This document shows, piece after piece, positions 11,700-64,000 of a DNA stretch of 64,000 nt. How positions within the stretch are numbered: position 1 is the first letter of the stretch; the number at the start of each line of letters is the position of its first letter. The notes beneath the pieces were generated by a model. The model was not told where the DNA came from, ran no database searches, and was given only the letters and a program-made list of their open reading frames with translations. The position numbers and the translations under genes are program-made. This stretch comes from Limonium bicolor (Eukaryota > Streptophyta > Magnoliopsida > Caryophyllales > Plumbaginaceae), in assembly GCA_023374045.1 (NCBI GenBank), contig CM041776.1, forward strand, positions 123,967,733 to 124,031,732, read 5' to 3'.

Positions 11700-11995
11700 C
11701 GAGCTATTCTAAGGCGCTGACTACCTACAATGAATGAGATGTTGTCAAGCGGTTCTAAGGCGTTGACTACCTATGACGAATGAGATGATGTCAAGCGATT
11801 CTAAGGCGTTGACTACCTATAATGAATGTGATGATGTCAAGCGATTCTAAGGCGTTGACTACCTATGACGAATGAATGATGTCAAGCGATTCTAAGGCGT
11901 TGACACCTAAATGAATGTGATATGTCAAGCGATTCTAAGGCGTTGACACCTAAATGAATGTATGTCAAGCGATTCTAAGGCGTTGACACACCTAA
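11700..11995. repeat. Tandem repeat, ~35-60 bp units
   Basis: About six copies of GTCAAGCGATTCTAAGGCGT followed by TGACTACCTATGACGAATGA or shortened versions; units shrink toward the right end. Non-coding. Confidence 0.85.
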
Positions 11996-12004
11996 AAGAC
12001 GAAG

Positions 12005-15545: not shown

Positions 15546-16644
15546 TGGGCCTGAAGGCCCTTAATCTGGAAGTGATACATACAAGCTGAAGGAAGCCATA
15601 TGAACTATGAATGGGCCACTGGGCTGAGAGAGAAACTTTGAAGTCTAAGACTTGTTTGATGTCCCTGCTGGGCCTTGAGGCCAGAAACTAGAATGAATGA
15701 GTTATGAAAAATTATCTTGAATTCGAGTGAGTTGAAACCTAAACAAATGGTTTTGAGTGGGCCTAAAAGGTATGACACCTAGATCTAGGGCTTTGGGCCA
15801 GGGCCCAAACAAAAAGTTCACCTAGACTAGAATGGGCCTTGGGCCGAAATGGAAAAACCTGATTGATTTTCATGTCTTATGGACTGCTTTAGGTAGATTG
15901 GCTTTTCATAGGCCTAGAACTAAATTGATAATTCAAATTAGGCTGAAAGAGAAATCACCTAAATCTAAACTTTTGGGCTGAAGCCCGAGCAAATAACTCA
16001 CACATTCTAATCAAGCAAGGCCTTTGGGCCGCAAACAATAAAGCCGCGATATCGGGTTGGGCTGAGTTGATGTAGGAAAAGTTCCTATCAATCTCTAGGT
16101 TGGGTAATGGGCCGATCATACAAGCAAACAAGGCCCACACAAATTCAACATGTCCTCACTTGGCGTTTAAATCAAACTGGGTATGGATCGATCCGGAGAG
16201 GTGCTTGGGGCATGGGCCCAGGTCACCTCAAAGGAATAGGGCTTGCACGCTATTCTCTTTGGGCTTCCCCACTTTTTTACATCACCTGAAGGTGTGCGTC
16301 TGCGGCCGGGTCTTTGACTGACCAAACAATGGGCTAGGTAAGGACACTGCCAGGAAAACGCTTGGGGCTAAGGCCCAGGTATTAAGGGGATGTGGTTAGA
16401 TGACATCCTCCTCTTTTCCCCCGCTTATTCACATCACCTAAAAGGTGTGAGTCCCTGACAGGGGACCCTCAAACGGTTCCCGGGATGAAATCAGTCCAGG
16501 TGGACCCTCGCTCTCATATGATGCAGGGGTGCAAAAATTTAAAGTGCGCACGAAAGTAAACAAACAGAGTAATAAAGCCATAAATAAACATTTTCGAGTT
16601 AAGCCCTCTTTCTTAAAAATAAACAAGTTAAAATTAAGAAGTAT
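15546..16644 (-). other. 5' leader region of nested Tat-type element
   Basis: No gene is visible. The part from about 16170 to 16644 is conserved with 29990-30470 and, in the opposite orientation, with 45383-45850. It includes the paired phrases ACATCACCT-AAGGTGTG and a polypyrimidine CCTCCTCTTTTCCCCCGC. Its place between PBS and gag position marks it as the transcribed leader. Confidence 0.6.
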
Positions 16645-16663
16645 GTCCCCAGCGGAGTCGCCA
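16645..16663 (-). other. Primer-binding site, tRNA-Arg type
   Basis: The minus strand reads TGGCGACTCCGCTGGGGAC starting three bases inside the 5' LTR. It matches, with one difference, the reverse complement of the 3' end of plant tRNA-Arg(ACG), the Ogre/Tat primer. Confidence 0.85.
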
Positions 16664-16666
16664 GTC

Positions 16667-18456
16667 TGTGAGCCTCGATTTTAAACCCTATCCTATGTGG
16701 ATTAAGTTGATTGGGATCTAGTCGGGTTTTAGGTCCACTTATAACCTAAGATTAATAACTATGTCATATAACAATAATTATTAAAACCTAAGCTAGCTCA
16801 CTGGAACCTATTATGAGTCGCCACCTAATTTTGACCTAGATTAAATTAGGAAAGGAGAGTTCGGGTTCGGGGGCTTGATATTCGACTTAATTAGGGTTCA
16901 ATTACTTTCATTACCCTTCCTAGGTCGTTTTTCCTCTACTTGGTTTATTTACGGCTTATTACGAGTCGTTTTAACCTAAGTGCGCGAGCTTCTGTTTTTT
17001 TTGTGTTTTTTAGCATTTTTTGATGGAAAACTAAAGTGGAAATTTAAATTACCTAAACTAGGGTTTCGGGGGCAGAATTAGGTCAGATTTTGTTTCCGTC
17101 CGTGGCCACGGACCTAATGTCCGAGACCACGGACCCTAGTTAACCTATATGAAAATAAAAGTCGAATTAAACAAAAACAGAAAGTTGTAAAGTCCGGGGC
17201 CACGGACAGGCCGTCCGTGGGCCCGGACATTATTAAAAAACCTAAATTTTAAAAATTTAAAAAATCTCGCCGCCGTCCGTGGGCGTCCGGTCTTACGGAC
17301 AGGGAGTCTGGACCCCGGACATGACGTCCGTGGGTGCGGACCACCCTCGGACGGCGGCGTTAAGGCTGTTCCCGAAGGTGTTTTTGGCTTAAATTTTATG
17401 GGTGTGTAGCCTGAAAGATGTACAATGCGTTAGTGATCGAAAGTTCTCAATTTGAATTCGAATTATGCACGAAACTTGGTAAACAAGTTATTGGACAGAA
17501 GCTTGAATAAACAGCAATACAGAAGCGTACGAAGGTTAGTTTGAGCCCAAATTTTGAGGCAAGACAGATAACACCGTGGAGAATTAGGGAAGTGGAGTTT
17601 CTACCTGTTTTACCTTCGGATTCACAATGTTTCTTCACACGGGATTCATCGAGTGCTCCGTTGATGGCAGACCCGAGAGGATTTCGACCCAAGCTCCTGG
17701 TTGTTGGTTGTTCTTGCTGTTCTTCACGTTTTGGTGGTGTTTTTGTGGGGTTTTGATGACTATTGATGCTTTGGGGATTGGAAAACGTGTTTAGATGGTG
17801 ATTTCGGGGGATTTTCGGTATGATTTGGGTGGCCGGGTGTTGGAAAACGTGAGAGAGAGTGAGGAGGCTGTGTTTTCTGATTCTCTAGGGTTCTTGAGCA
17901 TATGAGGTTCTGATTTTATCCAAAAACCTATCCCCTTATATAGACTTTCTTAAAGATAAAGAAAATCTAGTAAAAGTAAGATTTTTCGATATTTTAGTTA
18001 AGTGACTTCCCAAAGGAATTTTGCTGTGAAATTTTAACCACATGTCAAGGATGGATATTATGAAATTTCTGAGGTGGAACCGAATTTTTTGAATATTGGA
18101 ATATTTTTAAATTGAATTTCTCGTCAGATTCAGTCAGAAATTGCTATAAAATTATTGGAAATTCGAAAAATCAAAATTCCAACGCCATTATGCTTAAAAT
18201 GTCATCCTCTATCATGGGTTAAAATATCAAAGCGTTTCAAGCTGATTTGGGCATCCTTTGGAGGAGAGAGAAAGCTTACAAGAGGTCTTAGGAGCCTTTA
18301 AAGATTACCGAAACGCCCCTGAAAGTGACGAAGCTGCTCCCCATGCCATGGAACGTGCCGATCGGGCCGGGATCCCTCACCGCTTGATTAAAATGCCTCT
18401 CACCACACCAGTACCACGTAGACCCTAACCAGGGGGTCAAAATTTTGGGTATAACA
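16667..18456 (-). repeat. 5' LTR of nested Tat-type element
   Basis: The partner of 9782-11575, with the same TGTGAGCC...TATAACA ends. A TATA-like CTATATAAGG is on the minus strand at about 17934-17944. The GC-rich palindrome block is at 17097-17345. Confidence 0.92.
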
Positions 18457-18461
18457 GACCG
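18457..18461. repeat. Target-site duplication of nested Tat-type element, right (GACCG)
   Basis: Second GACCG copy; the element A pol frame resumes straight after it. Confidence 0.93.
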
Positions 18462-19310
18462 CATTCAGCTCGCGGTAGTCAATACAAAGTCGGAGGCTAC
18501 CGTCCTTCTTCTTCTTCACGAAGAGGACCGGTGCTCCCCAGAGTGATACGCTCGGGTGTATGAACCCTTTGTCGAGTAGGTCTCGTAGCTGTTCTTTCAA
18601 CTCTATCATTTCTCCAGGTGCCATGCGGTACGGTGCCCTAGCAATGGGACCGATACCTGGCAAGAGGTCAATCTCAAACTCTACTGCTCTTCGAGGTGGC
18701 ATACCAGGCAGCTCCTTAGGGAATACGTCAGGGAATTCAGATACAATGGGTACTTCGGGGTTGAACTCTGGATCTCTCTCCAGGTCTTGTACATAACACA
18801 AATACACTTCATGGCCCTTTCTGAGCTCCCGGTACATAGCCATAGAGGAGATGAGTGTGGTCGAAGGCTCTCTCGGTCTCTGGCGGTAAGATATAGTAAC
18901 CCCAGAAGGACTCTTGAGCAGCAATCGATGCTCGGCGCAGAGGATTCGCCCCTTGTGCCACTCCAACTAGTTCATTCCGACAATTACATCGAATCCCAAC
19001 CCATTAAACTCGATGAAGGAGATGGGAAACGCTTCACCTTTGATTTGGATCATGGCTGATTTGTAGTACTTGGTACACTGTACTCGCTCCTTCGATGGGA
19101 GAGTAACCAAGAAGTTCGGTAGCTCATCCGCATCTAGTCCTAACCTCTTCACAAAAGATGGTGATACGAAGGTGTGAGAGGCGCCGGAGTTGAATAACAC
19201 TGAGCCTTCAATGCCGTTCGCTGGGAAGGTTCCCGTTAAGATGGTGCCACTTTTACCGGCTTGTGCTTCGGTGAGGATACTCAGGTTACCTTCGGTACCG
19301 AGTCCATAAC
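18462..19310 (-). pseudogene. Element A pro-pol, 5' part: protease and start of RT
   Basis: The exon opens at 19310 after a splice-acceptor-like AATAG|G that is in phase with the upstream gag donor. Retropepsin follows at about 19090-19230; its catalytic loop reads NSGASHTF instead of the usual DSGA, as in element B. A stop at 18967-18969 ends the first frame (WN*LEWHKG). The next frame has the protease tail, the linker with [16 protein letters not shown] and the RT start ([20 protein letters not shown], then [10 protein letters not shown]). It ends at the insertion point of the Tat-type element; the gene continues at 9776. Confidence 0.9.
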
Positions 19311-19451
19311 CTATTGGATTCACAATTTCATAAGTATTGATGGTGGACACAAGTGGAATTTAAATCAACACTGCTCTTTATTGATAAACCAACCATCATA
19401 CATACCGTGTCTCTAATACACGTTACTAGTACATTACATGATAATATGAAT
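19311..19451 (-). promoter_or_regulatory. AlkB 3' untranslated segment with AATAAA and protease splice acceptor
   Basis: Between the AlkB stop and the protease exon the minus strand has AATAAA at 19377-19382 in the context ATCAATAAAG, then a pyrimidine- and AT-rich run ending CCAATAG at 19311. Element B has the same order (57437-57613). The segment would serve as 3' UTR when the AlkB exon is used, or as intron when it is skipped. Confidence 0.6.
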
Positions 19452-20191
19452 TTAATACTTTCTAAAGGTAAGGTTCAGGCGTCCTGGTTTCATGTGTGTG
19501 GCATTGATTGTTGCCGGCGGTGCCGTATTCAACTTGATCTTGTTGATCCCGTGATACAGCATCCTAGAGTTTCCACCCATGATTAGGACATCTCCTGATC
19601 TCAATACTAGTTTGTGTGCGAGGTCCACACGCTTCTGCTCGCTATACATAAATACGGCGTCATCACCAATGGACCAAGACACTACGGGCACCCCTTGTTC
19701 AAGAGATTCTGCTGTCTCGTCCTTGTCTTGGTGTAACCCAAGTCGTCCTTCTTTCTCTTAGAAGTTGATGATACAAAGGTCCGCTTCAAGTGTGGGGATC
19801 GGATCATATTCACATTGTTATGCAAGTTCTACTGCTTATGTGACAAGCGTCTGAAATTTTGGGGGTATTGTCGGTGGCATCGCTCCGTCTTGTGTTCGTG
19901 TCTCTTGGTATGTCTTGGTATAAGGATTCCGGTCCTTTCCCAAGCACATCATCTCCAGCTTCATCTTCGCTCCACCGGGGTATTCGGGTGTATAAAATCC
20001 TCCTGAACCCGCTCCTAGTTCGTTGCATCGTCGGATAATTTCAATTTGTGCTTCGGGTGTCAGGTATTCCTTTAATAAAATCATACCTGGTCAGATGACC
20101 TAACACTGCTCGTTGGTGTAGTAGTGATTGGTGATGTCGGTCTCTTCTTGGTTTGGGTTTAAAGGTATCGGGTAGCAGATATTAAAACTGC
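19452..20191 (-). pseudogene. AlkB-type Fe(II)/2-oxoglutarate dioxygenase exon of element A
   Basis: A continuous 740-nt frame encodes an AlkB-family oxygenase of about 246 residues, closest to plant ALKBH1-like proteins as far as I can recall. Seen: N-terminal PGMILLKEYLTPEAQ; substrate-loop region LGAGSGGFYTPEYPGGAKMK; iron-binding HQD at 19725-19733 (exon residues 154-156); SIGDDAVFMY; distal iron ligand in MLYHGI (H codon 19551-19553, residue 214); and the 2-oxoglutarate signature RLNLTFR at 19461-19481 (residues 238-244). All catalytic residues are present. In-frame stops occur in the linker before PGMILL, after FQTLVT, after AVELA and in IINF*EKEG, but there is no frameshift. The upstream acceptor at 20192 is in phase with gag exon 3. 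AlkB enzymes remove methyl groups from RNA or DNA; the substrate here is unknown. Confidence 0.93.
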
Positions 20192-20345
20192 CTATTGTTA
20201 TAAATTTCATCTACGGTGAGTACTAGTCTCAACTACTTCATTTCAAGCTCAATACATACTTCAATTCATTCACTCATGCATTCATTCAAACAGTTACTCC
20301 AATACTTAGTCATGCTTCTTAAGGATTCAAGGTTTAGTTAATTAC
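20192..20345 (-). other. Predicted gag intron 3 of element A
   Basis: 154 bp bounded by G|GTAATTAACT at the right and AACAATAG|GC at the left (minus strand). Removal keeps phase 1, joining the gag zinc-knuckle exon to the AlkB exon. The corresponding intron in element B is 145 bp at 58354-58498. Confidence 0.75.
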
Positions 20346-21812
20346 CTAGGCCGGACTTAGAACCGGACCCGTCACGATCAATAACGTGCAAGACAGGCTG
20401 CCTCTGAGGTGCGCCCCTCTGAGGACCCCGGATCCCTGTCACTGTAGCGCCTGCTGGGCTGGTGCATCACCAGATGCAACCTCCTTGCCTTCCCTCTGCT
20501 TGAAGCTCTGGAAGTTCCCTTTGGGCTTGGCATTCTCTGGGCACATATTAGCTCTATGTCCCGGTTTCTGATAGTTGTAGCACCTGATTTCTCTCCCATG
20601 GCAATCCATGCCGTGATGGTCTTGGTTGCACTTTCTTCACACGTAGGTGCGGCCGTCAGAGTAGTTCTTGGTGAAACCGGAGCCAAAACCTAAGGCTTAG
20701 AGTGTTAGCACATTTGTGCGGAAATACTAGCTATGTTACTTATACAAATTCAAATTTAGATTAGAAGTTTACCCTTAGGTGGGTGTGATCTCAGCGGCTT
20801 CGCACCCACCAGTGCAGAAGAACCAAGCTGAAGAAGCTCAACTGGTTTGCCTTTCTCATGGGCACTACTTTCACTAGGGGAGTTCTTGTGGGTTTGCTGG
20901 AAGAACTTCCCCTTCTTCTTTTTCCAGCTCTTGCCCTGGTTCTGCTCTTCAGCACTCGTGTTCTTGCTGTTGGCCTTGCGCTTAAGCGCGGTTTCTTTAT
21001 CCCTCAATTGGCAAGTGATCTCAATGCGAGATGCCACGTGATAACACTCCTGAAGTTTCAGGTATTAGCCGGGATTCTTATTTAGAAAGATAAGGGTAAA
21101 GTATTTAAGGAATTACAATGGTACTAAGGGTTCAACCGATATTTACCTGAAAGGAGGTAAATCTGGTGTAGCCCATGCCGTACCGAAGGCGATGGCTCAG
21201 ACCACCATAGAAGCGATCGACCAACACCTAGCCGGTGTACCCAAGGTCGGGTAATAGACGTAGAAGGGAGGTGAAGGTGCGGTAGTACTCATCGACATAC
21301 ATCTTCTCTGTCATCTTCAAAGCATCAAGCTCTATCCTTTTCCTTGTCTTGACGTGTTTAGGTTAGTATTTGGATCAGAGGAGGGTTGTGATGGATTCCC
21401 AGTCGAAGGTGGGGTCATCGGCATGCTCATTCTTGATTAATTTCCACCAATTCATGGTTGCATCCTTAAGATAGTGAGCCGCTACTCTAACTCAAACTCT
21501 AGCAGGAGCTTCGAGGGTTTCAATTGTCGTCTCCATCTCGGAGATGTAGGCTTCCAACTTAGCCGGATCACTCTCGCCTCAGAAACATGGAGGTCGGAGC
21601 TCCGCTACTGCTTTTACCAAGTTTGCTTCTCTGGGTGGAGGGGGAGGGATTGGTCCCGCTTGTGTTTGTTGGTTCTGCTGTGTTTGTTGCATGGTCGTGA
21701 TTATGCGAGGTAGCATCTGTGCTACCGTGGCGGCGACGATCTCTGCTATCGTCTGCGCGCCTGGCCCGTTAGAGGTCTCTCGTCTAGTTCAGCCTCGGCC
21801 TCTTCCTGACAT
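20346..21812 (-). pseudogene. Spliced gag of element A (three exons)
   Basis: Exon 1 (21812-21147, 222 codons) starts MSGRGRG and carries a decayed gag core. Exon 2 (21049-20773) is a basic linker starting ECYHVASRIE, with runs of K and QT. Exon 3 (20689-20346) holds zinc knuckles with decayed cysteines (CNQDHHGMDC, then GHRANMC). Intron 1 is 21050-21146 (CAG|GTAAAT...TTCAG|GAGTG) and intron 2 is 20690-20772, 83 bp (AAGG|GTAAAC...CTTAG|GT). Reading on into intron 1 gives a stop within a few codons, so full Gag needs splicing. Exon 3 is two bases longer than in element B, consistent with a frameshift. Gag would form the particle around the genomic RNA. Confidence 0.82.
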
Positions 21813-22011
21813 CTGAACATTTAGCATTTACATTAGGCTTGTAACATGTGACATGAGACCATTGGTCACGAATTTAAGCAAAGGTATCGTCCATAAGGAC
21901 GTTAAGGGTATCCGTTGTTAACAACGGTAATTCCTAGTTAGGTTTCTAAGTATCCGTCTTAAGACGGTTGAAATCCTAACTCGGTAATCCCTATGCTCGG
22001 TAATCAAGGTC

Positions 22012-22035
22012 ATCAGAGCATAGTTACGCTCTGAT
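22012..22035 (-). other. Hairpin overlapping the primer-binding site, element A
   Basis: ATCAGAGC, an 8-base loop, then GCTCTGAT: a perfect 8-bp stem whose one arm is most of the PBS. Element B has a 10-bp stem at the same place (60150-60173). Confidence 0.75.
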
Positions 22036-22039
22036 ACCA
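22028..22039 (-). other. Primer-binding site, initiator Met-tRNA
   Basis: The minus strand reads TGGTATCAGAGC, the standard complement of plant initiator tRNA-Met, five bases inside the 5' LTR. Confidence 0.93.
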
Positions 22040-22044
22040 CTTTT

Positions 22045-25000
22045 TGTAACACCCCTACTGCTAATCCTTTACTTACCGTCTAATCGTCCTAATTATTCTA
22101 CTACTCGCAGCAGAATTTACTACTACTACGGCGGGTGATACAACGCCGCTAACCACCCATATGGCTAGCTAGGCTTACAGTACCTACAGTTACGGTCTGA
22201 TGTCAAAGTATTACCGAGCTACTACATTGCATACCGAATACAAAGATCATATACTTACATTGCTGGATTACCGAGTATCAAAAGTGTATTCAATTACATC
22301 CCATTCAAGTCTACCAAAAATAATGAGTTTCTACCAACTACTCATCTACGCCATCTCATAATTCTTTCATTATCCAAAAAGGGGTGTACCCCATGGTACA
22401 CCGGCTAACAAAAAGCTTACAGCCGTGTACAACTTAGTACACCATTCACAATTCATTAATTACAATAAAAAAGAAGTCATCTTGAGCTCACAAGTCTTCA
22501 CCCTTCACGAGGACCTGCATTATATTAAAAACGGTGCCCCAAGGGGCTCAGCAAAAAGCTGCATATAAACTTCGCATATACCGCGTGCTAACTAGGGTAC
22601 ACCGACTATTTAAGGTCGACTGTACATGCGGTTCATTATTATCATACATACATGTTTTACATACATCATAAAATCATACACATTGCAATGCACAAGTCAT
22701 ACAACAATACAATAGCATACACAATACTTACCTTCACAAGGGTTAGCCAAATTACACATCCGGGTTAATCGGATGCTTATTACTCTTTTACTCATTACAC
22801 AATACTTACATAAACTTTCTCTTACTTTACTTACTTACTTTTCCATACTTGTTTACTCATTCTTACTTACTTACTTTTACTCATGTTAAGTCGGAATGAC
22901 CTCCGGGCAGGGACTACACCGTCCTACCACCGGGTTTTACTTGGCTCACCAATCCAGGATGCTACCCATTTAAGGGGTTTGGGCCGTGGACCAGTTTATG
23001 AGCCAGGAATTGGATCCAACCTCTTGTGTCTCCGCCTCCTCACGCGTGGCCGAAACTATATCGGACTTCTACTCATTCCAATTTAATTACCAATTTTTTT
23101 AGTTAGATTGGTTAGCTTGTTAGGAATCAGTTAGAAGTCCATCACATTTGCATTCGGTCACAACACAATACATCAAGCATACACACATTCATTATCATCC
23201 ATACATTTCATGAATTATACAAACTATGATTTAAAGACAATATCCCACAAGGAACAATCTCATGATAATCACAAGTAAGCATAATATATCCGATTCGTGC
23301 GATTGTCTTATTTAGGTGATCAATTAGCACACAACACATAAATCAGAGTAACCAAGGTAGCATACGGGGCGTGAGAAGTTCATACCGTTCACCGTTGTAC
23401 TTGTAACCGACTTTCCTCCGGTGTTCACAATTCAAGTCCTATCACATACATACAATTGGGTGGTTAATTATCCATAATTAACCTTACTATTTACTTCCCT
23501 TGCATTTCCTGGTTTATACTTACTAATTCATTGTTATTCAAGTACATGTACTTAAGTTACTTACTTAAAATTATTTTCTAAACTTGTTTATGGCCTTAAT
23601 GACCTTTAAATATCATTAATCATGTCTTAATTATCTTATACTATCATTACCCTTCATTACCCTACCTTAGATTAGCTTTAAAATAGATTCTGTGTAAAAA
23701 TTGAGGTGGTCCGGGTTACTGTCCGGGTTTACAAACCTGGACCACCACTTTGGAAATCTCTCGGGTATGTTTTATGTATGGTCCGGGTTTGTGTACTACT
23801 TTACAAACCCAGACCACAAGTTTGTATAACTTATGGGTGTGTTTTATGTATGGTCCGGGTTTGTGTACTACTTTACAAACCCGGACCACAAGCTTTGTTA
23901 AATCTCGGGTGTGATTTAGGGGTGGTCCGGGTTAGTGTCCTGGTTTGTAAACCTGGACCACTCCTTTGACATAACATTCTGCCGTGTTTTAATGCTGGTC
24001 TGGGTTTCTGTACTGGTTTACAAACCCGGACCAGTTGCAGTTTTGCAAATTATATATGTTTTTGAACTTGTTTCAACTCCAAACTTCTACCAATCTCTTT
24101 CCCAATATTCCTACATATAATCTAGCATGTTTTGACATGGTTTAAGCACTTTAAACTAACCTAATCCAACCTATATCATTATCTGTTACATTTACTCACC
24201 TCACTGTAAGTTTTTCTCTTCTATTACAATTTTCCTTCTCCAGCTAATGCTACATACTTTCCCATTCTTCTTCCCACTAGCTAAATGACTCTCAAACTAG
24301 TAAAACTTAGTTGAACAACTCCCATACACCATTTCCAACTCTACTCAACTACACTTTTTCTTCCTGTTACAAACCAAGTGAAAAATCTCATTTTTATTCT
24401 CTGTACAACCTCTCTGTTCTTTCTTTACTAGCAGCACACAAGTCTGTAAATTCCTAACCAAATTTTGATAGAGTTTCCCTACAATTCTAAGTGTTCTCAC
24501 CACATAAATTTGCACACTCAAGACAGTTCACAACCTGTTCAATATATGCATTATTTCCACACAACTTCTAACACTTACTGCACATTTAACACTCACACTT
24601 AGCATTTTGTTTATTTGTTTTCAAAAGCTTCAAACTACAAATATAGTTGACATCAATATACTCATTCCCTTCCTACTGTTACGGTGGTTTTAAACCATTG
24701 CTAATGTAATGCACTTATACATACACAAATATTAAGACTACAGTACAGAGACATTTCATTACCTTGAGTTCTTGTTTCTTTTTTTTCCTTTCTCTCCTTC
24801 TCTTTTCTTGCTCCTCTTTCCTTCCTGTTCTTGTTTCTTTGTTTTCTTGATTTTATTTAAGCCAACCTACACCATGTAACAAGGCATACACACACACACA
24901 CAAACTAGTAAATTTCTAACGTAGGTTTTAAACCCTAACTTGTGAGAAACCATTTCAAACTCTTAGGAAGTCTTACCTTGAGCTTCTAATGGAGTTTTTG

Positions 25001-25937
25001 GGTAGAATATGACAAGGCTTCAGCTGTCAAGATGGAACACCAAACCGGCTGGGTGAGGGAAAACAATGGTGTTCACATGAGTTTGATTTTTGCAAGGAAA
25101 AATGGAAAAGAGGAGAGCTTTGGTCCTTTTCTTACCTTAGAACATGAAGAAGATGATGGAGCTTCAAATGGTGCTCCTTAGACTCCAAAATGATTGTACC
25201 CTAAAAAATGAAGTTGGAGGTTTTTGATTTTTGAAGGGTGTAGAACGATCTCCTTAACGAGACGAATTCAACGGTATAATTTTTGTAGTGTTTGGAGGTG
25301 ATTTGGGGTTTCAAAAATAAGGAGGAAGTGGGCTGCTATGTGTGGATTCTCAAATCGCCATGGCTGGCCGGCTTGGAGAAGAAAGAAAGCAGAGAAAGAA
25401 GAGAGGTGCAGTACGTGGGGTTTCTGAGGGATAGGAGAGAGAATGAATAAAGTAAGGTATATGTACTTTCTTTTGCTTTTTAATTTCTTTTGTCTTTTGC
25501 AAATAAGGAGGGAATTAAGGGAGTGTGAGAGAGGGACTGAAATCGGCCCATACATCACACACACACAGATTTACATTTTTATTTTCAATTGTGGACACAC
25601 TCGTTTGGGTTATTTATGTTTTTACCCCACAACTTCCCGTTTTTTACAGTTTTTACTATTTTCTCGTTTTATTGATTTTATTGATTCTAGACCTTCATTA
25701 ATGTTTATTAATGGCTATTTAGTTGACCAAAATTGTTACGAGTCTATTTGACCCGCTTAAGGTTGCGTTTTCCCGGTTTCCTCGAAAAACACGCTTTAAG
25801 GTTCGTTTGTGTTTTTAATCCATTTTAAGGATCTGTTTTCTTCGGGATTTGTTCCCTAATATTTATTTAGACTTAATTAAGCTTCTAAAATACTTATTAG
25901 CCTAATTAATCACTATTTTTAATTATGGGGTATTTCA
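22045..25937 (-). repeat. 5' LTR of element A
   Basis: 3,893 bp, TGTAACACCC...GGGGTATTTCA on the plus strand, matching 1811-6792 minus its CACTA insertion. It holds the inverted-repeat array at 23708-24034. No gene is recognised inside. Confidence 0.94.
23708..24034. repeat. Array of five inverted repeats in 5' LTR of element A
   Basis: Same as 4570-4894: GGTCCGGG...ACAAACCCGGACC stems at intervals of about 70-73 bp, with a few mismatches such as CCTGGACC and TCTGGG. Confidence 0.85.
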
Positions 25938-49722: not shown

Positions 49723-52700
49723 TGTAACACCCCTACTACGCACTTAACAATAATGGAAAATTGCAGCGGAAATATACAACTAACAACAGCTAAACGATTC
49801 GGTGTTACAATGCCGTTAACCACCCACGTGGTTAACAAGGCAGAATAAATACCAATGTACCGGTCTGATGATCAGACTCCCGAGCATAGAACTAATAACC
49901 TTAAATACATACACATAATACCGAGTATGTAACTACATCCATAACTGGAAACTGTACACCACAAACTGTCACTGGAAACTGATAACACCAAGATATAACG
50001 CCACGGGAGCACAGGCGCACCCCAGGCTTAACATCCAAAATATACCAAAAGTATTCCCACAACCTAGGATCTAAAGCCACTCCGCTTCTTCGATCCTCAT
50101 CCTACAATAAAAATATGGAGCCCCCGAGGGGGTCAGCAACCCTTGGCTGGTATGGTTAACGCGCAGCCCATCGGCTATCGGGATACGCGTAACTATTTGT
50201 CATGATAACATGGCATTCATTTTAACATACAACAAATACATATGGCATAGCAAAAACATTGCATAGCACAACAATACACACTTAGTGAGAACATATCACT
50301 TAACAGCAAACCGAGAAGGTTAGTCAACATCATAAGCCTAGAGAATGGTTCACCCTCATGTTAAGCTTGTTACACAAACTCATTACCGTTCTGTTAGTCG
50401 AACGAGTAACTTAACTCACAGATGGATCGGATATTGTGACCCGAACACACCACACAAACACATGTTCCCACTAGACCGATCATAAGTCAGAATAGGTAAG
50501 CTTTGGAGGAAGCTAACGGGAGATCGATCGCCAAATAAAGGAGAACAATCTTAACATTATAATAGTCGAATCTGATACAGATATCTACTCTTATACTTAC
50601 ACGCGTGACCGGACAACCGGATTCCTCACCCCCAGTTAGCACTCGTTAGAAGTTAGCTGTTGGAACTTAATAACAAATAACAACAAGTGGTTAAGTCCTG
50701 TTAGACACACACAAGGGATATGAGTCGCACCTTAACATCACAATAATATAATCAACAGTAAACTCGTTACATGACTTAAGTCTTACAAGGTCATAAACAT
50801 ACAGAAAAACAAACAGCACACAAGCCGGTGTAAACTGATAGGCAACAGACTGCAAGAAAACCATACCTTGGTCCTTGCTTCGACTGGTTTCCACCGTAGG
50901 TCACTCCTATACATGATTAATAACGCCGGTTAATTTACTTACTTAACTTCAAATTTTACTAAGCATTTTACATGATTATATGACACGTTTTAATGCCCAA
51001 ACTTATCCTTGATTACCTTCATCATACCCCCTAGGGTTAACTACTTAAGCCACTCTTTGTTTGTTTTTTTTTTACAAATTTTGGTCCGACCGACCTTACC
51101 GACCGACCTTACACAAGGTCGGTCCATTCCAGAACATATTACCGTCAGAAAATTCTACTCCGACCGACCTTGCAAGTTCGGTCCACAAGGTCGGTCTATT
51201 CACGAGAGTTTTTCCCCTTTGAAAATTCAGGCCCGACCGATCCTGGCAAGTTCGGTCCCATGATCGGTCGATTCCCAAGACTAACTTACGTACAAAGATT
51301 TAGGCATGACCGACCTTGTAATTTCGGTCCCAAGGTCGGTCTATTCCAGAGACTCAATCCATACCAAAAATCCATGCCCGACCGACCTTGCAAGTCCGGT
51401 CCCCAAGGTCGGTCCATTCCAGAGACCATTTCTCGCAGGGTAAACTGGGCTCGACCGACCTTGCAGGTCCGGTCCCCAAGGTCGGTCTGCTCCAGACCCT
51501 TGTTTTTAATTGCCCATTTAACTCCAAACTTCACCTCATAGTGCCCTAGTATGTTCTAACCACATTTGGCACTTCAAACATCCTTTAAGACATCCATTAA
51601 ACTCCTTAAATCATTCACCAAAACCCTCCTCAACATTACACAAATCCTTATACAAAGGTTAACACATGCAATGATTTCACTAAGTTTTTATGTGGTGTTT
51701 AATACCTATAACTATCACTATTCCCAAATGTTTCCTCACTACTACAACATCATCTCCCAAGCATCTTTTCTTCTTAACCCAACTCCTTGAATATCTCTAC
51801 AAGTTTATAGCTCCTTCATGCAACACATCACTTCTTCCTTATTCACCAACATTGCACAAGTCCTAAACACAATCTCACCATGATCTTGAAGTATCCCAAA
51901 ACACTCATTTGCATCCTAGATCCTCTTAAATATTGCCTAGGTCCTTTTTACATCTTAGAATACCTTAGTGCATATTTCTTTCACTAGTAAAACACTTAAT
52001 CACCCTAAACACTTCCTAACTCACCAAACTCATTTTAAACACCTAAACTTCTTATACATTATCTAAATTTCGACATGGGTTCTCCTAGCATCTTGTTACA
52101 CCAAAACACAAAGTTTTCACCATTAAACATTCAAGAACACTTAAATCCATCAAGGACATTCTCATACACGAAACTTCACCAAACTTACACTACATCACAA
52201 TATAGTGCATTATTTAACTTGCTTGGCACTTAGGCCCTTAAATAACATGGCTCATAGGCCCTTAAATTGCATAAACCTTAAACACTGAATTTCCCACATT
52301 ATATTTGCCTTTGACCTGCAAATACACCCAACAATACATATGCCCTTTTAATAAACCCTTGAGAGTATTTTTCTAAGTCATTTACCATTGGCTCCTTAGA
52401 TAGTTTTAATAAGCAATAAGCTCATTTATCCTAAGACACTATAAGCTACATTAGGTTAGCATATTTACCTCCTTTCCTCACAAACTTCTTTCTTGTTTCC
52501 TTGATTAAAATTTGTAAGGATGTTTGATTGCTTGTCAACTTCTAAACAATATACAAATAATGAAATGCGTATACAAGCTTTATGCTTCATCTCATTGTAA
52601 ACCCTAGATACATATATTGTCCTAAAACATTAAGGTGATTGTTTTACCTTGAGAATGGAAGAGAGTGTGAACAAGTAACAAGAGAGGACTCCACCAAGCC

Positions 52701-53749
52701 CTTGGAAGATTCAAATGAAGCTAAAACAAAGCAAGGTAAAGACACCATTAATGGTGTTTTTCGGACAACATAAAACATGAAGGAAATAGAGTTTTTCTTT
52801 GAGTTTCCTTACCTAGAAGCAAAGGAGAGCAATAATATGTGAAAAGGTGAGCTCAAGCTCCTCCCATGGAGATTCCTCTTGGCACCGAAATGGAGCTCTT
52901 GGAGTTTTGAGAAGATAGGATTGAAGAGCTTGATGAGACTAGAAGAATGGTGGTCTTTGTTTTTGATTTGGTAAAGAGAGCTAGGAGATATAAGAGGTCA
53001 AAGAAGGAGAATGGTGTGAGAGCTGTTGCAAACCGATGGAGAGAGGAAGAAGATGAAGTTGGAGACGGTGGGAATGCAAGAGAAATAAGAGAATGAGTTT
53101 GAAGTTTACTTTTGGAAGATATTAAGTAGTAAAGTAAATAGTAACTTGCTTTATCATTTGTTATTTATTTGTTAACTTGCAAGGTGGTGACTCACCTCAT
53201 AAAAACCGGCCCCCATTAGTTGTCTAGGGGTGTTTTAGTCTTTGTTGACCAATTGTCTCACTTATATTGACATATATTATAAACTTGGTTAATTTGGTTA
53301 CTATTCACCAAAACAAGGCACATATTTGTGAAATTTTTTATTTCCCCTTGATTTAGACTTCCTAACGTGATACTAAGTAGTACACATGTTAATTAAAGAG
53401 TAATGATGGACATTTAGCCATTCAAAGCTCATTTACAAGACAATTTTTCAAAAATGTGCTTTAAGACTCCTTAAAGCACATTTTGTGTTTTAACTTGTTT
53501 TCAAGCTTGGTTTTCTTTGGTAATTGGTTTATTATAGTTATTAACACCTAAATAAAGTCTTTATAAGCTTATTAGGTCTTAACCAAACTTATCCCAAGCT
53601 TAGGGCACATTTTTGCCCATATTGACTTTAAGGTAATTTATTGTGTTTTCTACGGTTTAAATTGTTTACTAATGTTTCTAAGACTTTTTTTAGTCTAAAT
53701 ATACCATATTTTAATGTTTAAACGACATACTAAGGTTTGGGGTATTTCA
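49723..53749 (-). repeat. 3' LTR of element B
   Basis: 4,027 bp, TGTAACACCC...GGGGTATTTCA on the plus strand. It differs from the 5' LTR at scattered single positions. Inverted-repeat array at 51088-51490. No supported gene. Confidence 0.94.
51088..51490. repeat. Array of six inverted repeats, ~73-bp period, in LTR of element B
   Basis: GACCGACC-like starts at about 51088, 51162, 51235, 51308, 51380 and 51453, each followed by a GGTCGGTC-like inverse near 30 bases on. Centres read TTGCAAGTTCGGTCC or similar. The intervals are 72-74 bp. Confidence 0.87.
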
Positions 53750-53765
53750 ATCTACCCCCCTTTAA
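53750..53765 (-). other. Polypurine tract of element B
   Basis: The minus strand reads AAAGGGGGGTAGAT next to the 3' LTR. Confidence 0.9.
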
Positions 53766-54056
53766 AGAACTTTGTCCCCAAAGTTCATACTTCCCGCATA
53801 TCCTAAATATTAGAACACGGGAATACATATAAACAATACTTCCATAACAACATTAACAACATACTTACGTAGCACCGGACACAGGGTCCAAACAACATAA
53901 CAACATAACATCATTTAGACACAACGGTCTGTAACATAACAAGATAACAACATAACACATAGACAATGTATCCAAATACATGTCGTACACACATAACCAA
54001 AACTGCTCTACCCCCCTTAAAATAGGGGTACGCCTTGTACCCTATACATACAAATA
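53766..54056 (-). other. 3' untranslated segment of element B
   Basis: Between the pol stop and the polypurine tract; rich in AACATAACA repeats, with GGGGTACGCC near 54026 as in element A. No gene. Confidence 0.6.
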
Positions 54057-57436: not shown

Positions 57437-57613
57437 CTAATTCATTGGAAACTTATAAGTATTTTGTTACAACACGGTTGATATACTTCGAACAACTCCA
57501 CTTTATTGATTAACACTCCTTTCACATCACAAGTCGATTATATTGTAAACTTAGCTAGATATAGCATTCTTAATATACAACTGCCTTAACACATTACATA
57601 ATTATACAAGACT
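57437..57613 (-). promoter_or_regulatory. AlkB 3' untranslated segment with AATAAA and protease splice acceptor (element B)
   Basis: The minus strand has ATCAATAAAG (AATAAA at 57502-57507), then CCAATGAATTAG|G ending at 57437. Same order as in element A: AlkB stop, poly(A)-like signal, acceptor, protease exon. Confidence 0.6.
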
Positions 57614-58353
57614 TTAAAACTGGCCGAAGGTCAAATTCAAACGTCCAGGTTTCATGTGTGTGGCATTGATCACTGTCGAAGGTGCGGTATTCAGTTTGAT
57701 CTTCTTGATTCCATGATATAACATCCTTGACTGTCCACCCATGATTAACACATCTCTTGACTTCAACACTAATTTCCTTGCGAGATCAGCACGCTTCTAC
57801 TCGCCATATATAAACACTGCGGTATCACCAATGGACCAAGACACCACGGGTACTCCCTTACTTAGAGACTCGGGTGACTCGTCCGTATCTTGGTGTAACC
57901 CTAATCGTCCACCTTTCTGGTAGAAGTTCACAATACATAAATCCGCTTTAACACTTGGTATTGAATCCGTTTCAACATTCTGAGCAATTCCCACGGCGTG
58001 GTTAACGACCGTAAGGAAGTCCTCAGGTATCATCGGTAACGTTGCTCCATCTTCAGCTCGCACTTCTTGATATTTCTTGGTGTAAGGATTCTAGTCCTTA
58101 CCCATGCACATCATCTTCAGCTTCATTTTTTATCCGCTCGGGTATTTGGGTGTGTAGAAACCTCTAGGTGCTGCTCCAAGTTCATCGCATCGTCGGATAA
58201 TGCGGACTTGTGCTTCAGGTGTCAGGTATCCATTTAAGAGTATCATACCTGGTTGGATAACCTGACACTACTCCATTGGGAATTCGGTGATGCTGATGGT
58301 TGTCTCTTCGGGGTTCGGTGTGGGCGGGATTGGATAATAGATATTGAAGGTTC
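57614..58353 (-). pseudogene. AlkB-type Fe(II)/2-oxoglutarate dioxygenase exon of element B
   Basis: 740 nt, the same length as in element A, with no frameshift. Seen in order: GMILLNGYLTPEAQ, GFYTPKYPSG, MKMMCMGKD, ADLCIVNFYQKGGRLGLHQD with the HQD iron motif at 57887-57895 (residues 154-156), VPVVSWSIGDTAVFIYGE, distal His in MLYHGI at 57713-57715 (residue 214), and RLNLTFG at 57623-57643, where the last Arg of the 2-oxoglutarate RxNxTxR motif is Gly. Stops occur before CQVIQPGM, in PSG*KMK, KD*NPY and YGE*KRA; none of these is at a stop position of element A. It lies between gag exon 3 and the protease exon. It is likely derived from a host ALKBH1-like gene; the substrate is unknown. Confidence 0.94.
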
Positions 58354-58498
58354 CTAAGTTTTAAAATTACCTACTTTAGGTGACTTTCACATTATACTTT
58401 AATTCTTTACTCACATGGTTGTACATCTAGATTCACTAACACACATGCATGAAATGCGGTATGCAATCACTTATTTCACTTAACAGTTTAGGCGGTAC
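58354..58498 (-). other. Predicted gag intron 3 of element B
   Basis: 145 bp, CCAG|GTACCGCC to AAACTTAG|GA on the minus strand, phase 1. If unspliced, gag ends at a stop four codons into the intron (58488). Confidence 0.75.
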
Positions 58499-59962
58499 CT
58501 GGTCTTGAAGAGGGTCCTGGCGCCTCAGACCGGTCCACCACATTCAGGGCGGCCTTGCCGGATCCTGCCCCTTTCCCCTTCTGGGAATCAGTGTTCCTCT
58601 GATCTGTGGGTGGCTGGTTAGCCGACTTCGGGCCATCGGTGGTCGCGGTGGCCTTACCCTTCCACTGCCCCTTGGGCTTATTGTTTCTGCTGTTGGGGTT
58701 CCGGTAGCACTCATAGTCACGGTGACCCAACTTCTCGCAGTAGCGACACTGCACGTCATTTCCTTTGCAGTCCTTGCCGGGGTGGTCTCCGTTACACCAC
58801 TTACAGTAGTAGTGGCGCTCCGGTCCAGAACCCGTGCTGGCTACTATCACAATACATAATCAATTCTTACTTCATATCTTAACAACATACACTTCAACTT
58901 GACACACATGTTTAAGTAATTACCCTTAGGCGGGTAAGAGCGTTGGGGTTTCCCCGCATATGCGTATGTGAGCTTCAGTGGCTCCTCAGCTGTGGTGGTC
59001 TGGGCTTGGCCCTTGTCACCATGGTGCTGACTCTTCTGGGGCTGGGGGTAAGGCTTCTTCTTCTTCTTTCCTCCCCCATACCCCTGCGGACTCTGGCCCT
59101 CGCTCGTGGCCTTGCGCTTGTGCGCATTCTCCTCGACCCTCAGACGAATGGTAATCTCAACCTTAGCAGCGGCATGATATCACTCCTGGATTTAGGACGT
59201 CAGTCATGCCCCGCAAAACAAAACTCACAAACTCACATTAACATTTACTTACGGTACAAACTGGTTCACATGACGGTATTTAATTACCTGCAAGGTAGTA
59301 TACTCAGCTGGCCCCATCCCGTAGCGAAGACGGTGGCTGAGACCGTTGTAGAAACGGTTCACCAACACCCAGTTCGAGTATCCCAGGTCCGGTAACAGGT
59401 GGATAAGGCCGGTGAAAGCGGTGTAGTAGTCATCAACCGACATCTTATCCCCCTGCCTCAGGCTATCCAGCTCTAGGCGCTTGGCCTCTTGAACATGCAC
59501 AGGATGATACTTGGCTCGCAGCAGAGCCGTATACTCTCTCCAACCAAACTGAGGATCCGCCATCCGGTCCTCTCTCACAAGCTTCCACCAACTTTGTGCC
59601 GAACCCTTCAGGTAGTAAGCGGCAAGGCGGACCTTGGCTCCAGCAGGCACATCCAAGGTCTCGTAGGCGGTCTCCAACTCGGAGATATACGCCTCCAGCT
59701 TACGAGGGTTGGTCTCCCCATTAAACGACAGGGGTCTCAGATCAGCTAACGCCTTGACCCAGTTGGTCTCTCGTGGCGGTGGCGGTGGTGGTTGAACTTC
59801 GGGCTGTTACCCCTGCTGAATTGCAGCTACTAATTGTGGGACCATCTGGGCTACGGCGGCCGCAACAGCGTCGGCCATGACTTGCGTCGTAGGGTACTCC
59901 CCCTGGTTCCCGGTATCACCAATGCCGCGCCCGCGGCCTCAACCTCGTGGTCTACCTGACAT
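58499..59962 (-). pseudogene. Spliced gag of element B (three exons)
   Basis: Exon 1 (59962-59288, 225 codons) starts MSGRPRG and has the retrotransposon gag core (LKGSAQSWWKLVRED, then FGWREYTALLRAKYHP, GDKMSVDDYYTAFTGL). Exon 2 (59185-58924) is a basic linker (YHVAAKVEITIRL, KKKKKPYPQPQ). Exon 3 (58840-58499, open throughout) has two zinc knuckles, CKWCNGDHPGKDC and CRYCEKLGHRDYEC. Intron 1: 59186-59287 (CAG|GTAATT...ATCCAG|GAGTG). Intron 2: 58841-58923, 83 bp as in element A. Exon lengths keep the frame at every junction. In-frame stops in exon 1 (after MSGRPRG and after AAIQQG) and at the start of exon 2 inactivate this copy. Confidence 0.85.
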
Positions 59963-60149: not shown

Positions 60150-60173
60150 TCAGAGCGATACTTCGCTCTGATA
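60150..60173 (-). other. Hairpin overlapping the primer-binding site, element B
   Basis: ATCAGAGCGA-TACT-TCGCTCTGAT: a perfect 10-bp stem with a 4-base loop; one arm is part of the PBS. Confidence 0.8.
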
Positions 60174-60177
60174 CCAC
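60166..60177 (-). other. Primer-binding site, initiator Met-tRNA (element B)
   Basis: The minus strand reads TGGTATCAGAGC, five bases inside the 5' LTR. Confidence 0.94.
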
Positions 60178-60182
60178 TTTTT

Positions 60183-63100
60183 GTAACATCCCTACTATGC
60201 ACTTAACAATGATGGAAAATCGCAGCGGAAATATACAACTAACAACTACTAAACGATTCGGTGTTACAACACCGTTAACCACCCACATGGTTAACAAGGC
60301 AGAATAAATACAAATGTACCGGTCTGATGATCAGACTCACGAGCATAGAACTAATAACCTTAAATACATACACATAATACCGAGTATGTAACTACATCCA
60401 TAACTGTAAGCTGTACACCACAAACTGTCACTGCAAACTGATAACACCAAGATATAACGCCACGGGAGCACAGGCGCACCCCGGGCTTAACATCCAAAAT
60501 ATACCAAAAGTATTCCCACAACCTAGGATCTAAAGCCACTCCTCTTCTTCAATCCTCATCCTGCAATAAAAATATGGAGCCCCCGAGGGGGTCAGCAACC
60601 CTTGGCTGGTATGGTTAACGCGCTGCCTATCGGCTACCGGGATACGCGCAACTATTTGTCATGATAACATGACATTCATTTTAACATACAACAAATACAT
60701 ATGGCATAGCAAAAACATTGCATAGCACAACAATACACACTTAGTGAGAACATATCACTTAACAGCAAACCGAGAAGGTTAGTCAACATCATAAGCCTAA
60801 AGAATGGTTCACCCTCATGTTAAGCTTGTTACACAAACACATTACCATTCTGTTAGTCGAACGAGTAACTTAACTCACAGATGGATCGGATATTGTGACC
60901 CGAACACACCACACAAACACATGTTCCCACTAGACCGATCATAAGTCAGAATAGGTAAGCTTTGGAGGAAGCTAACGGGAGATCGATCGCCAAATAAAGG
61001 AGAACAATCTTAACATTATAAGAGTCGAATCTGATACAGATATCTACTCTTATACTTACACGCGTGACTGGACAACCGGATTCCTCACCCCCAGTTAGCA
61101 CTTGTTAGAAGTTCGTTGTTGGAACTTAATAACAAATCACAACAAGTGGTTAAGTCTTGTTAGACACACACAAGGGATATGAGTCGCACCTTAACATCAC
61201 AATAATATAATCAACAGTAAACTCGTTACATGACTTAAGTCTTACAAGGTCATAAACATACAGAAAAACAAACAGCACACAAGCCGGTGTAAACCAGTAG
61301 GCAACAGACTGCAAGAAAACCATACCTTGGTCCTTGCTTCGACTGGTTTCCACCGTAGGTCACTCCTATACATAATTAATAACGTCGGTTAATTTACTTA
61401 CTTAACTTCAAATTTTACTAAGCATTTTACATGATTATATGACACGTTTTAATGCCCAAACTTATCCTTGATTACCTTCATCATACCCCCTAGGGTTAAC
61501 TACTTAAGCCACTCTTTGTTTGTTTTTTTTTTTTACAAATTTTGGTCCGACCAACCTTACCGACCGACCTTACACAAGGTCGGTCCATTCCAGAACATAT
61601 TACCGTCAGAAAATTCTACTCCGACCGACCTTGCAAGTTCGGTCCACAAGGTCGGTCTATTCCGAGAGTTTTTCCCCTTTGAAAATTCAGGCCCGACCGA
61701 TCTTGGCAAGTTCGGTCCCAAGATCGGTCGATTCCCGAGACTAACTTACGTACAAAGATTTAGGCATGACCGACCTTGTAAGTTCGGTCCCAAGGTCGGT
61801 CTATTCTAGAGACTCAATCCGTACCAAAAATCCATGCCCGACCGACCTTGCAAGTCCGGTCCCCAAGGTCGGTCCATTCCAGAGACCATTTCTCGCAGGG
61901 TAAACTGGGCTCGACCGACCTTGCAGGTCCGGTCCCCAAGGTTGGTCTGCTCCAGACCCTTGTTTTTAATTGCCCATTTAACTCCAAACTTCACCTCATA
62001 GTGCCCTAGTATGTTCTAACCACATTTGGCACTTCAAACATCCCTTAAGACATCCATTAAACTCCTTAAATCATTCACCAAAACCCTCCTCAACATTACA
62101 CAAATCCTTATACAAAGGTTAACACATGCAATGATTTCACTAAGTTTTTATGTGGTGTTTAATACCTATAACTATCACTATTACCAAATGTTTCCTCACT
62201 ACTACAACATCATCTCCCAAGCATCTTTTCTTCTTAACCCAACTCCTTGAATATCTCTACAAGTTTATAGCTCCTTCATGCAACACATCACTTCTTCCTC
62301 ATTCACCAACATTGCACAAGTCCTAAACACAATCTCACCATGATCTTGAAGTATCCCAAAACACTCATTTGCATCCTAGATCCTCTAAAATATTGCCTAG
62401 GTCCTTTTTACATCTTAGAATACCTTAGTGCATATTTCTTTCACTAGTAAAACACTTAATCACCCTAAACACTTCCTAACTCACCAATTCATTTTAAACA
62501 CCTAAACTTCGTATACATTATCTAAATTTCAACATGGGTTCTCCTAGCATCTTGTTACACCAAAACACAACGTTTTCACCATTAAACATTCAAGAACACT
62601 TAAATCCATCAAGGACATTCTCATACACGAAACTTCACCAAACTTACACTACATCACAATATATTGCATTATTTAACTTGCTTGGCACTTGGGCCCTTAA
62701 ATAACATGGCTCTTAGGCCCTTAAATTGCATAAACCTTAAACACTGAATTTCCCACATTATATTTGCCTTTGACCTGCAAATACACCCAATAATACATAT
62801 GCCATTTTAATATACCTTTGAGAGTATTTTTCTAAGTCATTTACCATTGGCTCCTTAGATAGTTTTAATAAGCAATAAGCTCATTTATCCTAAGACAATA
62901 TAAGCTACATTAGGTTAGCATATTTACCTCCTTTCCTCACAAACTTCTTTCTTGTTTCCTTGATTAAAATCGGTAAGGATGTTTGATTGCTTGTCAACTT
63001 CTAAACAATATACAAATACTGAAATGCGTATACAAGCTTTATGCTTCATCTCATTGTAAACCCTAGATACATATATTGTCCTAAAACATTAAGGTGATTG

Positions 63101-64000
63101 TTTTACCTTGAGAATGGAAGAGAGTTTGAACAAGTAACAAGAGAGGACTCCACCAAGCCCTTGGAAGATTCAAATGAAGCTAAAACAAAGCAAGGTAAAG
63201 ACACCATTAATGGTGTTTTTCGGACAACATAAAACATGAAGGAAATGGAGTTTTTCTTTGAGTTTCCTTACCTAGAAGTAAAGGAGAGCAATAATATGTG
63301 AAAATGTGAGCTCAAGCTCCTCCCATGGAGATTCCTCTTGGCACCGAAATGGAGCTCTTAGAGTTTTGAGAAGGTAGGATTGAAGAGCTTGATGAGACTA
63401 GAAGAATGGTGGTCTTTGTTTTTGATTTGGTAAAGAGAACTAGGAGATATAAGAGGTCAAAGATGGAGAATGGTGTGAGAGCTGTTGCAAACCGATGGAG
63501 AGAGGAAGAAGATGAAGTTGGAGACGGTGGGAATGCAAGAGAAATAAGAGAATGAGTTTGAAGTTTGCTTTTGGAAGATATTAAGTAGTAAAGCAAATAG
63601 TAACTTGCTTTATCATTTGTTATTTATTTGTTAACTTGCAAGGTGGTGACTCACCTCATAAAAACCGGCCCCCATTAGTTGTCTAGGGGTGTTTTAGTCT
63701 TTGTTGACCAATTGTCTCACTTATATTGACATATATTATAAACTTGGTTAATTTGGTTACTATTCACCAAAACAAGGCACATATTTGTGAAATTTTTGAT
63801 TTCCCCTTGATTTAGACTTCCTAATGTGATACTAAGTAGTACACATGTTAATTAAAGAGTAATTATGGACATATAGCCATTCAAAGCTCATTTACAAGAC
63901 AATTTTTCAAAAATGTGCTTTAAGACTCCTTAAAGCACATTTTGTGTTTTAACTTATTTTCAAGCTTGGTTTTCTTTGGTAATTGGTTTATTATATTTAT
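60183..64000 (-). repeat. 5' LTR of element B (incomplete at window end)
   Basis: TGTAACATCC onward matches 49723-53530; the final ~210 bp and the outer target duplication are beyond the window. No gene is recognised in it; the open frame at 63312-63596 is serine-rich low complexity and is not supported. Confidence 0.94.
61548..61948. repeat. Array of six inverted repeats in 5' LTR of element B
   Basis: Same as 51088-51490, with GACCGACC...GGTCGGTC stems and the same ~73-bp interval. Several changes break or restore stem pairs. Confidence 0.87.

Follow-up and report, generated by a model that had tools for sequence, protein, structure and literature searches.

Can an LTR retrotransposon acquire a nucleic acid demethylase and maintain it as one of its own coding sequences? 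The question is raised by a 64,000-nucleotide stretch of Limonium bicolor DNA (referred to here, as a whole, as the window), in which a first-pass annotation, made from the letters alone, had described a Ty3/gypsy element (element B) with a complete AlkB-type demethylase-like domain.

Element B carries an AlkB-type exon between gag and protease

Element B lies on the minus strand, and its parts are as follows.

49723..54005, minus strand: 3' LTR of element B, a direct repeat with the sequence from 60182 onward; inner edge approximate, inferred from alignment with the neighbouring copy L016
54057..57436, minus strand: pol part of element B, frame interrupted; Pfam RVP_2, RVT_1, RT_RNaseH, Integrase_H2C2, rve and SH3_Tf2-1
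57614..58353, minus strand: ALKBH1-type AlkB exon of element B, ending in a stop codon of its own; profile and fold matches, and homologues in other copies
58499..59960, minus strand: gag of element B, capsid plus two CCHC zinc knuckles; Pfam Retrotrans_gag; outer limit approximate
59287-59186 and 58923-58844, minus strand: two predicted introns inside gag of element B; divergence peaks with GT/AG ends
60165..60176, minus strand: primer binding site TGGTATCAGAGC of element B, adjoining the 5' LTR; identified by sequence
60182..64000, minus strand: 5' LTR of element B, continuing beyond the end of the window into the neighbouring copy L016

An LTR pair, a primer binding site, gag followed by protease (PR), reverse transcriptase (RT), RNase H and integrase in that order and, for element A (described below), a target-site duplication identify these elements as Ty3/gypsy. 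We take the primer binding site of element B to be of the initiator-Met tRNA type. Its pol encodes protease, RT, RNase H and integrase and ends in a weak chromo-like C-terminus (Pfam Chromo, 22.7 bits; cut-off, 25.1). The same profile gave 22.0-24.1 bits, also below the cut-off, for the window copy and three of four other copies, and no match for the fourth. These scores do not suffice to assign the element to the Tekay chromoviruses. The two LTRs are separated by a K2P distance of 0.0215 over 3818 aligned positions, and both contain GC-rich 72-bp tandem repeats with CCGACC/GGTCGG motifs (51086-51488 and 61575-61956). Outside the window, the 5' LTR leads into the pol of L016, forming an LTR-internal-LTR-internal tandem that probably arose by LTR recombination; in this arrangement element B has no target-site duplication to test.

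The minus-strand frame that begins at 58353, the first base past an AG acceptor, and ends at 57614, the final base of a stop codon, is an exon encoding an AlkB-type 2-oxoglutarate (2OG)/Fe(II) dioxygenase. It contains HQD, a distal His (in YHG) and RLNLTFG in AlkB order, in agreement with the HxD, distal His and RxNxTx(R/G) motifs described by the first-pass annotation, and it lies where that annotation had placed it, with the CCHC knuckles of gag (at about 58805 and 58748) upstream and the protease-RT frame downstream. The description of the domain as complete holds for its span but not for the element B copy, which has four premature in-frame stops ahead of the terminal stop (three of them within 58267-57617) and a Gly at the final Arg position of the RxNxTxR 2OG motif.

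A chance match to these motifs is ruled out by profile, solved-structure and fold matches. The PF13532 profile (2OG-FeII_Oxy_2; cut-off, 31.2 bits) matched three open-frame copies with 169.9, 169.4 and 158.3 bits, the first of these being the open homologue in L001, which also matched the solved rice OsALKBH1 (5XEG) with an E value of 1.3e-75, so that the similarity is significant against both Pfam and the rice enzyme. A structural model of the element B protein, in which the stops were read as residues, had a mean pLDDT of 91.5 and matched 5xeg and 5xoi with TM scores of 0.92 and 0.95, respectively. Over 30 copies, the catalytic residues were present as follows: H in 29, D in 30, distal H in 30, R in 27, N in 28 and T in 30; the last R of RxNxTxR was R in 24, G in one, K in one and unreadable in four.

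The named matches in three database searches (120 listed for each) were ALKBH1C/D, abh1-like, AlkB or unnamed oxygenases, and no ALKBH5 chain occurred among the 21 PDB sequences matched or among the 50 fold matches shown. By its closest relatives, the element AlkB belongs to the plant ALKBH1 subfamily rather than to ALKBH5, ALKBH9 or ALKBH10. It shares its fold with plant ALKBH1D and rice OsALKBH1 (5XEG, 5XOI), is 46-47% identical to them across the catalytic domain, and resembles plant ALKBH1D in its C-terminal RLNLTFR and, in lineage D (see below), in a FDIC-like motif that precedes the domain in host proteins as well.

AlkB occupies the same position throughout the element family

Copies were chosen blind to AlkB, the only query for the genome search being a 901-base stretch of protease-RT DNA. 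Among 7227 first-look candidates 40 were scored, one of which was the window itself, and 20 of the other 39 (L009-L028) were fetched with 4-5 kb flanks. AlkB was found between gag and protease in 20/20 of these copies; absence from all other family members, named in the first-pass annotation as a refuting outcome, was not observed. The blind copies are 95-96% like element B in protease-RT and are not independent events, so they test fixation within one clade. Three further lineages carry AlkB at the same place: element A of the window; L001 and L008, with 71% identity to element B in protease-RT; and L029-L031 (lineage D), in which capsid and PR-RT Pfam matches were found too. A one-off insertion in a dead copy is ruled out by the blind copies together with these other lineages; the ALKBH1-like domain sits between gag and protease in every family copy examined, and open AlkB frames occur elsewhere in the same genome (e.g., in L001). 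In a genome-wide first look with AlkB, 38,325 candidate places were obtained, and the best 150 were scored, all of them over the Pfam cut-off. The number of first-look candidates should not be read as a number of copies; as a yardstick, the RuBisCO small subunit, whose coding sequence seems to be divided into exons, in keeping with a photosynthetic eukaryote, gave 17 with the same tool.

Element A, which is also on the minus strand, has the following features.

1811..25937, minus strand: element A, carrying nested insertions; LTRs at 1811-6792 (with a 1.1-kb insertion) and 22045-25937
19452..20191, minus strand: AlkB exon of element A, at a place homologous to that in element B; five in-frame stops
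19311..20345, minus strand: predicted splice region of element A; a donor and two acceptors, all phase 1

A 5-bp target-site duplication, AGGAG, flanks element A at 1806-1810 and 25938-25942. The AlkB sequences of elements A and B share 70.5% amino-acid identity over 20105-19455, and both are broken. The left LTR of element A holds a 1.1-kb stretch (3122-4218) that is absent from the right LTR, and a 97% direct repeat inside the element (9782-11577 and 16667-18458) probably represents the two LTRs of a more recent, nested element. LTRs were dated with a substitution rate of 1.3e-8 per site and year. At this assumed rate, the LTR distances correspond to about 0.8-1.1 million years, an age that is only indicative for element B because of its tandem arrangement. 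Another Ty3/gypsy element of the window, element C (33737-35875, plus strand), is 50% identical to element B in protease-RT, and a single open frame without AlkB covers its gag, zinc knuckles, protease and RT, an arrangement that would fit a gain of AlkB after the lines leading to elements C and B had split.

Predicted splicing would join AlkB to Gag

The divergence profile and splice counts for the B clade were drawn from 21 sequences, element B of the window and L009-L028; L001-L008 were excluded, having been picked up through their AlkB score. Outside the B clade, splice sites were read in detail in element A, L001, L008 and L029. Four divergence peaks occur in the 21-sequence alignment, each bounded by GT/AG. 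The first gag intron has its GT and AG ends in 21/21 sequences, and the second has its donor in 21/21 and its acceptor in 20/21. Around AlkB, two alternative introns are predicted (slashes within splice sites mark exon boundaries).

58354..58498, minus strand: predicted intron from gag to AlkB; donor CAG/GTACC in 21/21; divergence peak
57437..58498, minus strand: predicted alternative intron skipping AlkB and joining gag to protease in frame (phase 1); donor and acceptor in 21/21

The AlkB acceptor, which has two forms, is present with the usual exon start in 19/21 sequences (L011 retains the AG, and L017 is without the acceptor), and the protease acceptor, AG at 57438-57437, is present in all 21 aligned copies. 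After CCA G/, both acceptors resume in phase 1, with G/GA ACC TTC leading into AlkB and G/GC TGT GCA leading into protease. Since 21-45% of the dinucleotides within the introns are likewise invariant, the weight of the prediction rests on the recurrence of the splice trio in diverged lineages. The trio, consisting of one donor in gag and an acceptor each for AlkB and protease, recurs in phase 1 with different letters in four lineages: outside the B clade, element A has the donor CTAG/GTAATT at 20345, the AlkB acceptor AATAG/GC ending at 20192 and the protease acceptor AATAG/GT ending at 19311; L001 and L008 have CCCAG/GTATT, CGTAG/GA and TTAG/GT, respectively; and L029 has ACGG/GTAAGC, AATAG/GT and CCCAG/GC.

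The gag stop codon is located a few codons inside the gag-AlkB intron, past the donor, so that unspliced RNA should give Gag. No donor was seen by eye before the AlkB stop codon; inclusion of AlkB should therefore end the protein, and Gag-Pol should need AlkB skipping. We infer that one transcript could give rise to three products: Gag (unspliced), Gag-AlkB (by use of the AlkB acceptor) and Gag-Pol (by skipping of AlkB).

Two other features of these introns were observed. The first part of the gag-AlkB intron (58445-58489), although non-coding, is among the least divergent stretches (3%) and contains TGCAT...ATGCA, making it a possible splicing or packaging signal. Lineage D is apparently without the first gag intron that is present in the B clade and in L001/L008 (L029, minus strand, gag frame 3518-2748), which seems to reflect the gain or loss of an intron in this retroelement family.

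A Gag-AlkB fusion may demethylate the nucleic acid of the element

The reading that we favour, and consider reasonably probable, is that this is a Ty3/gypsy family with a selected ALKBH1-type domain, predicted to be spliced onto Gag, that likely N-demethylates adenines in the RNA or single-stranded cDNA of the element itself. The AlkB exon would be spliced onto Gag after the nucleocapsid, the nucleocapsid would carry AlkB to packaged nucleic acid, and the Gag-AlkB fusion, having brought the enzyme to packaged RNA, hybrid and cDNA, would remove N-methyl groups from adenines of element RNA or single-stranded cDNA. Putative substrates are m6A RNA, 6mA single-stranded DNA or an alkylation lesion. 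Activities of this kind are reported in the literature: the substrate of rice ALKBH1 is 6mA in DNA that is single-stranded or unpaired, and R-loops gain 6mA when the enzyme is lost (PMC10469495); m6A demethylase activity is reported for NbALKBH1L of N. benthamiana (PMC12736721); and in Arabidopsis, m6A keeps ONSEN RNA in stress granules until it is removed by ALKBH9B (PMC12786077).

Alternatively, the captured AlkB could repair 1-methyladenine/3-methylcytosine damage, or could act in trans on host RNA or chromatin, and not on the element. We regard this as rather unlikely. After the rice enzyme, the solved structures that match it best are those of the repair enzyme AlkB from E. coli, and rice ALKBH1 is described as affecting H3K27me3 through impaired PRC2 binding (PMC10469495), both of which would suit such a role; the predicted nucleocapsid fusion, however, would put AlkB on the element's own RNA and cDNA.

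It also appears quite unlikely that the spacers between gag, AlkB and protease are not introns and that AlkB is a protein in its own right, translated from RNA that is unspliced or processed in some other way. In favour of this reading, the AlkB frame ends in a stop codon of its own in four lineages, the orchid element discussed below is described as having a separate ORF (PMC9289625), and no fusion protein was found among 120 listed of 148 database matches (385-1225 aa; judged by names and domains, none showing a Pfam domain of gag or protease). In L003 and L029 the exon contains, ahead of the AlkB domain, a Met that could serve a separate product, but in L001 the first Met is at residue 94 of 263 and the domain starts from residue 53, so that such a start is not conserved and separate initiation of AlkB is weakened. 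Moreover, the spacers diverge, contain stops in all frames and have GT/AG ends with matching phase in four lineages.

AlkB is under purifying selection

Values of dN/dS were estimated by the Nei-Gojobori method after copies with less than 80% of a segment had been dropped (leaving n = 30 for AlkB, 28 for protease-RT and 25 for capsid, of which 20, 20 and 19, respectively, were blind copies). Within the B clade, dN/dS was 0.19 for AlkB (351 pairs), 0.15 for protease-RT and 0.12 for capsid. Between clades it was 0.13 for AlkB (81 pairs, dS 1.4), the only segment compared in this way, as protease-RT was saturated and capsid had no clade-A rows. Wrong-frame controls of AlkB gave 1.0 and 1.75-2.0; values like these in AlkB itself, which would fit a passenger, were looked for and not found. 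The two spacers beside AlkB gave 0.5-0.9, indicating that the estimator is not perfectly centred and lies somewhat below 1 on non-coding sequence. When lineage D was compared with element B or L001, synonymous sites were saturated (pS 0.81-0.88) and pN was 0.23-0.24. These ratios indicate that AlkB is under purifying selection in the element family. Converted at the rate given above, a dS of 1.4 corresponds to tens of millions of years, which is a rough figure, since the rate is an assumed one and the estimate approaches saturation.

Clean frames were present in 7/20 blind copies for AlkB, 6/20 for protease-RT and 7/19 for capsid; decay of AlkB is no worse than that of protease-RT or capsid. 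It is thus very improbable that AlkB is a functionless passenger amplified by the element's success: 13/20 blind copies are without a clean AlkB frame, but decay is equal in protease-RT (14/20) and capsid (12/19), the AlkB dN/dS of 0.13-0.19 resembles that of both, and non-synonymous change is low despite saturated synonymous distance.

Origin and relatives of the element AlkB

Among the matches listed, the database proteins nearest to the L001 AlkB are P0001-P0004 (61-74% identical), and the next relatives are plant ALKBH1D-type proteins, near 50%. Trees with plant ALKBH relatives, a check proposed in the first-pass annotation, were rooted on liverwort and contained 14 of 30 element rows (first tree) or 12 of 33 (second tree). 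In both, the element AlkBs and P0001-P0004 formed one clade (support 100/98 and 100/99, respectively) that stands beside, not within, the other non-outgroup plant rows (28 in the first tree and 25 in the second). A grouping of the genome's element rows together without P0001-P0004 was rejected (p-AU 0.007), indicating that these four proteins, whose sources may be other plants, share a lineage with the element AlkBs. A grouping of the element clade with Asteraceae hosts was not rejected (p-AU 0.42), and the depth of the clade is unsure because of long branches. Plant ALKBH1D proteins are stand-alone, many with long N-termini, whereas the element versions and P0001-P0004 make up a clade beside them.

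We infer that an ALKBH1-like coding sequence was probably captured once, before the four lineages split. The earlier proposal that the element had captured a host ALKBH1-like coding sequence is supported insofar as an ALKBH1-like predicted exon, under selection, is present in every examined copy; the host ALKBH1 gene itself was not recognised among the best 131 of 47,104 genome candidates (three of these loci, L029-L031, were read). One row of this search, C7:74476175, extends further into the N-terminus.

No named species with an element-type AlkB was recognised among 120 listed of 1533 matches. The third-ranking match, P0232 from Artemisia, turned out to consist of host-like domains in tandem. 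P0122 (Smallanthus), P0124 (Aegilops) and P0232 each contain two ALKBH1-like stretches of host type, and P0121 and P0123, both from Smallanthus, rank beside these three. In a search for viral-contig relatives with P0002 as the query, two stretches matched a pattern and none was confirmed.

Relationship to other retroelements and viruses with AlkB

The first-pass annotation knew of no described LTR-element lineage with AlkB. One had been published: Gypsy_Pa_2799 of Phalaenopsis (Alvarado-Marchena et al. 2022), an Ogre-like element with an ALKBH5-type domain that demethylates m6A in vitro and that was reported from two Phalaenopsis species only in a screen of 121 angiosperm genomes (PMC9289625). 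The statement therefore has to be qualified; the orchid lineage differs in AlkB class, in the position of the domain and in the type of element. Both are multi-copy plant Ty3/gypsy lineages with an AlkB domain (PF13532) in which the catalytic residues are kept. In the orchid element, however, the ALKBH5-type domain closes a separate ORF2 that accompanies a single gag-pol ORF, whereas the Limonium domain is ALKBH1-type and lies between gag and protease; likewise, Gypsy_Pa_2799 is a 25.5-kb, Tat/Ogre-related element with a tRNA-Arg primer binding site, whereas that of the Limonium element is TGGTATCAGAGC. The two gains of AlkB were apparently independent, as the AlkB class, site and expression plan differ, and the weak chromo matches, if right, would place the Limonium element on a gypsy branch other than that of the orchid element. 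No ALKBH1-type AlkB in an LTR element was found in the literature searched, which was without most subscription journals and bioRxiv preprints; passages of a December 2025 review mention the orchid case alone and term introns in plant LTR elements exceptional (PMC12786077).

Splicing within the element is known to set gag and pol products in Ogre and EVADE (ATCOPIA93), according to the same review (PMC12786077), as is predicted here, and alternative splicing is reported for sunflower LTR elements (PMC7730604). Unlike in Ogre and EVADE, the segment predicted to be switched in the Limonium element is an enzyme exon, and further introns are predicted inside gag. Selfish replicons with their own AlkB are also described among plant RNA viruses (Alphaflexiviridae, Betaflexiviridae and Closteroviridae; PMC9289625); these are RNA viruses and not LTR retroelements.

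A more far-reaching scenario, which we offer tentatively, is that the cassette exon welds an ALKBH1-class demethylase to the nucleocapsid; that, while reverse transcription proceeds, this packaged eraser would strip methyl groups from adenines in genomic RNA, in RNA:DNA hybrid and in single-stranded cDNA, allowing new copies to escape epitranscriptomic or 6mA silencing; and that the orchid ALKBH5-type and Limonium ALKBH1-type gypsy lineages are convergent. If two gypsy lineages have each taken up a different AlkB class, this convergence would argue that plants do defend themselves by methylating adenines in the nucleic acid of retroelements. Because ALKBH1-type enzymes have been linked to single-stranded DNA and R-loops, it is testable whether plants mark retroelement cDNA or hybrids in addition to mRNA. 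Shared alternative acceptors would, for their part, be a new means of setting the ratio of Gag to Gag-enzyme to Gag-Pol. In automatic annotation, a genome such as this one may show hugely expanded AlkB genes.
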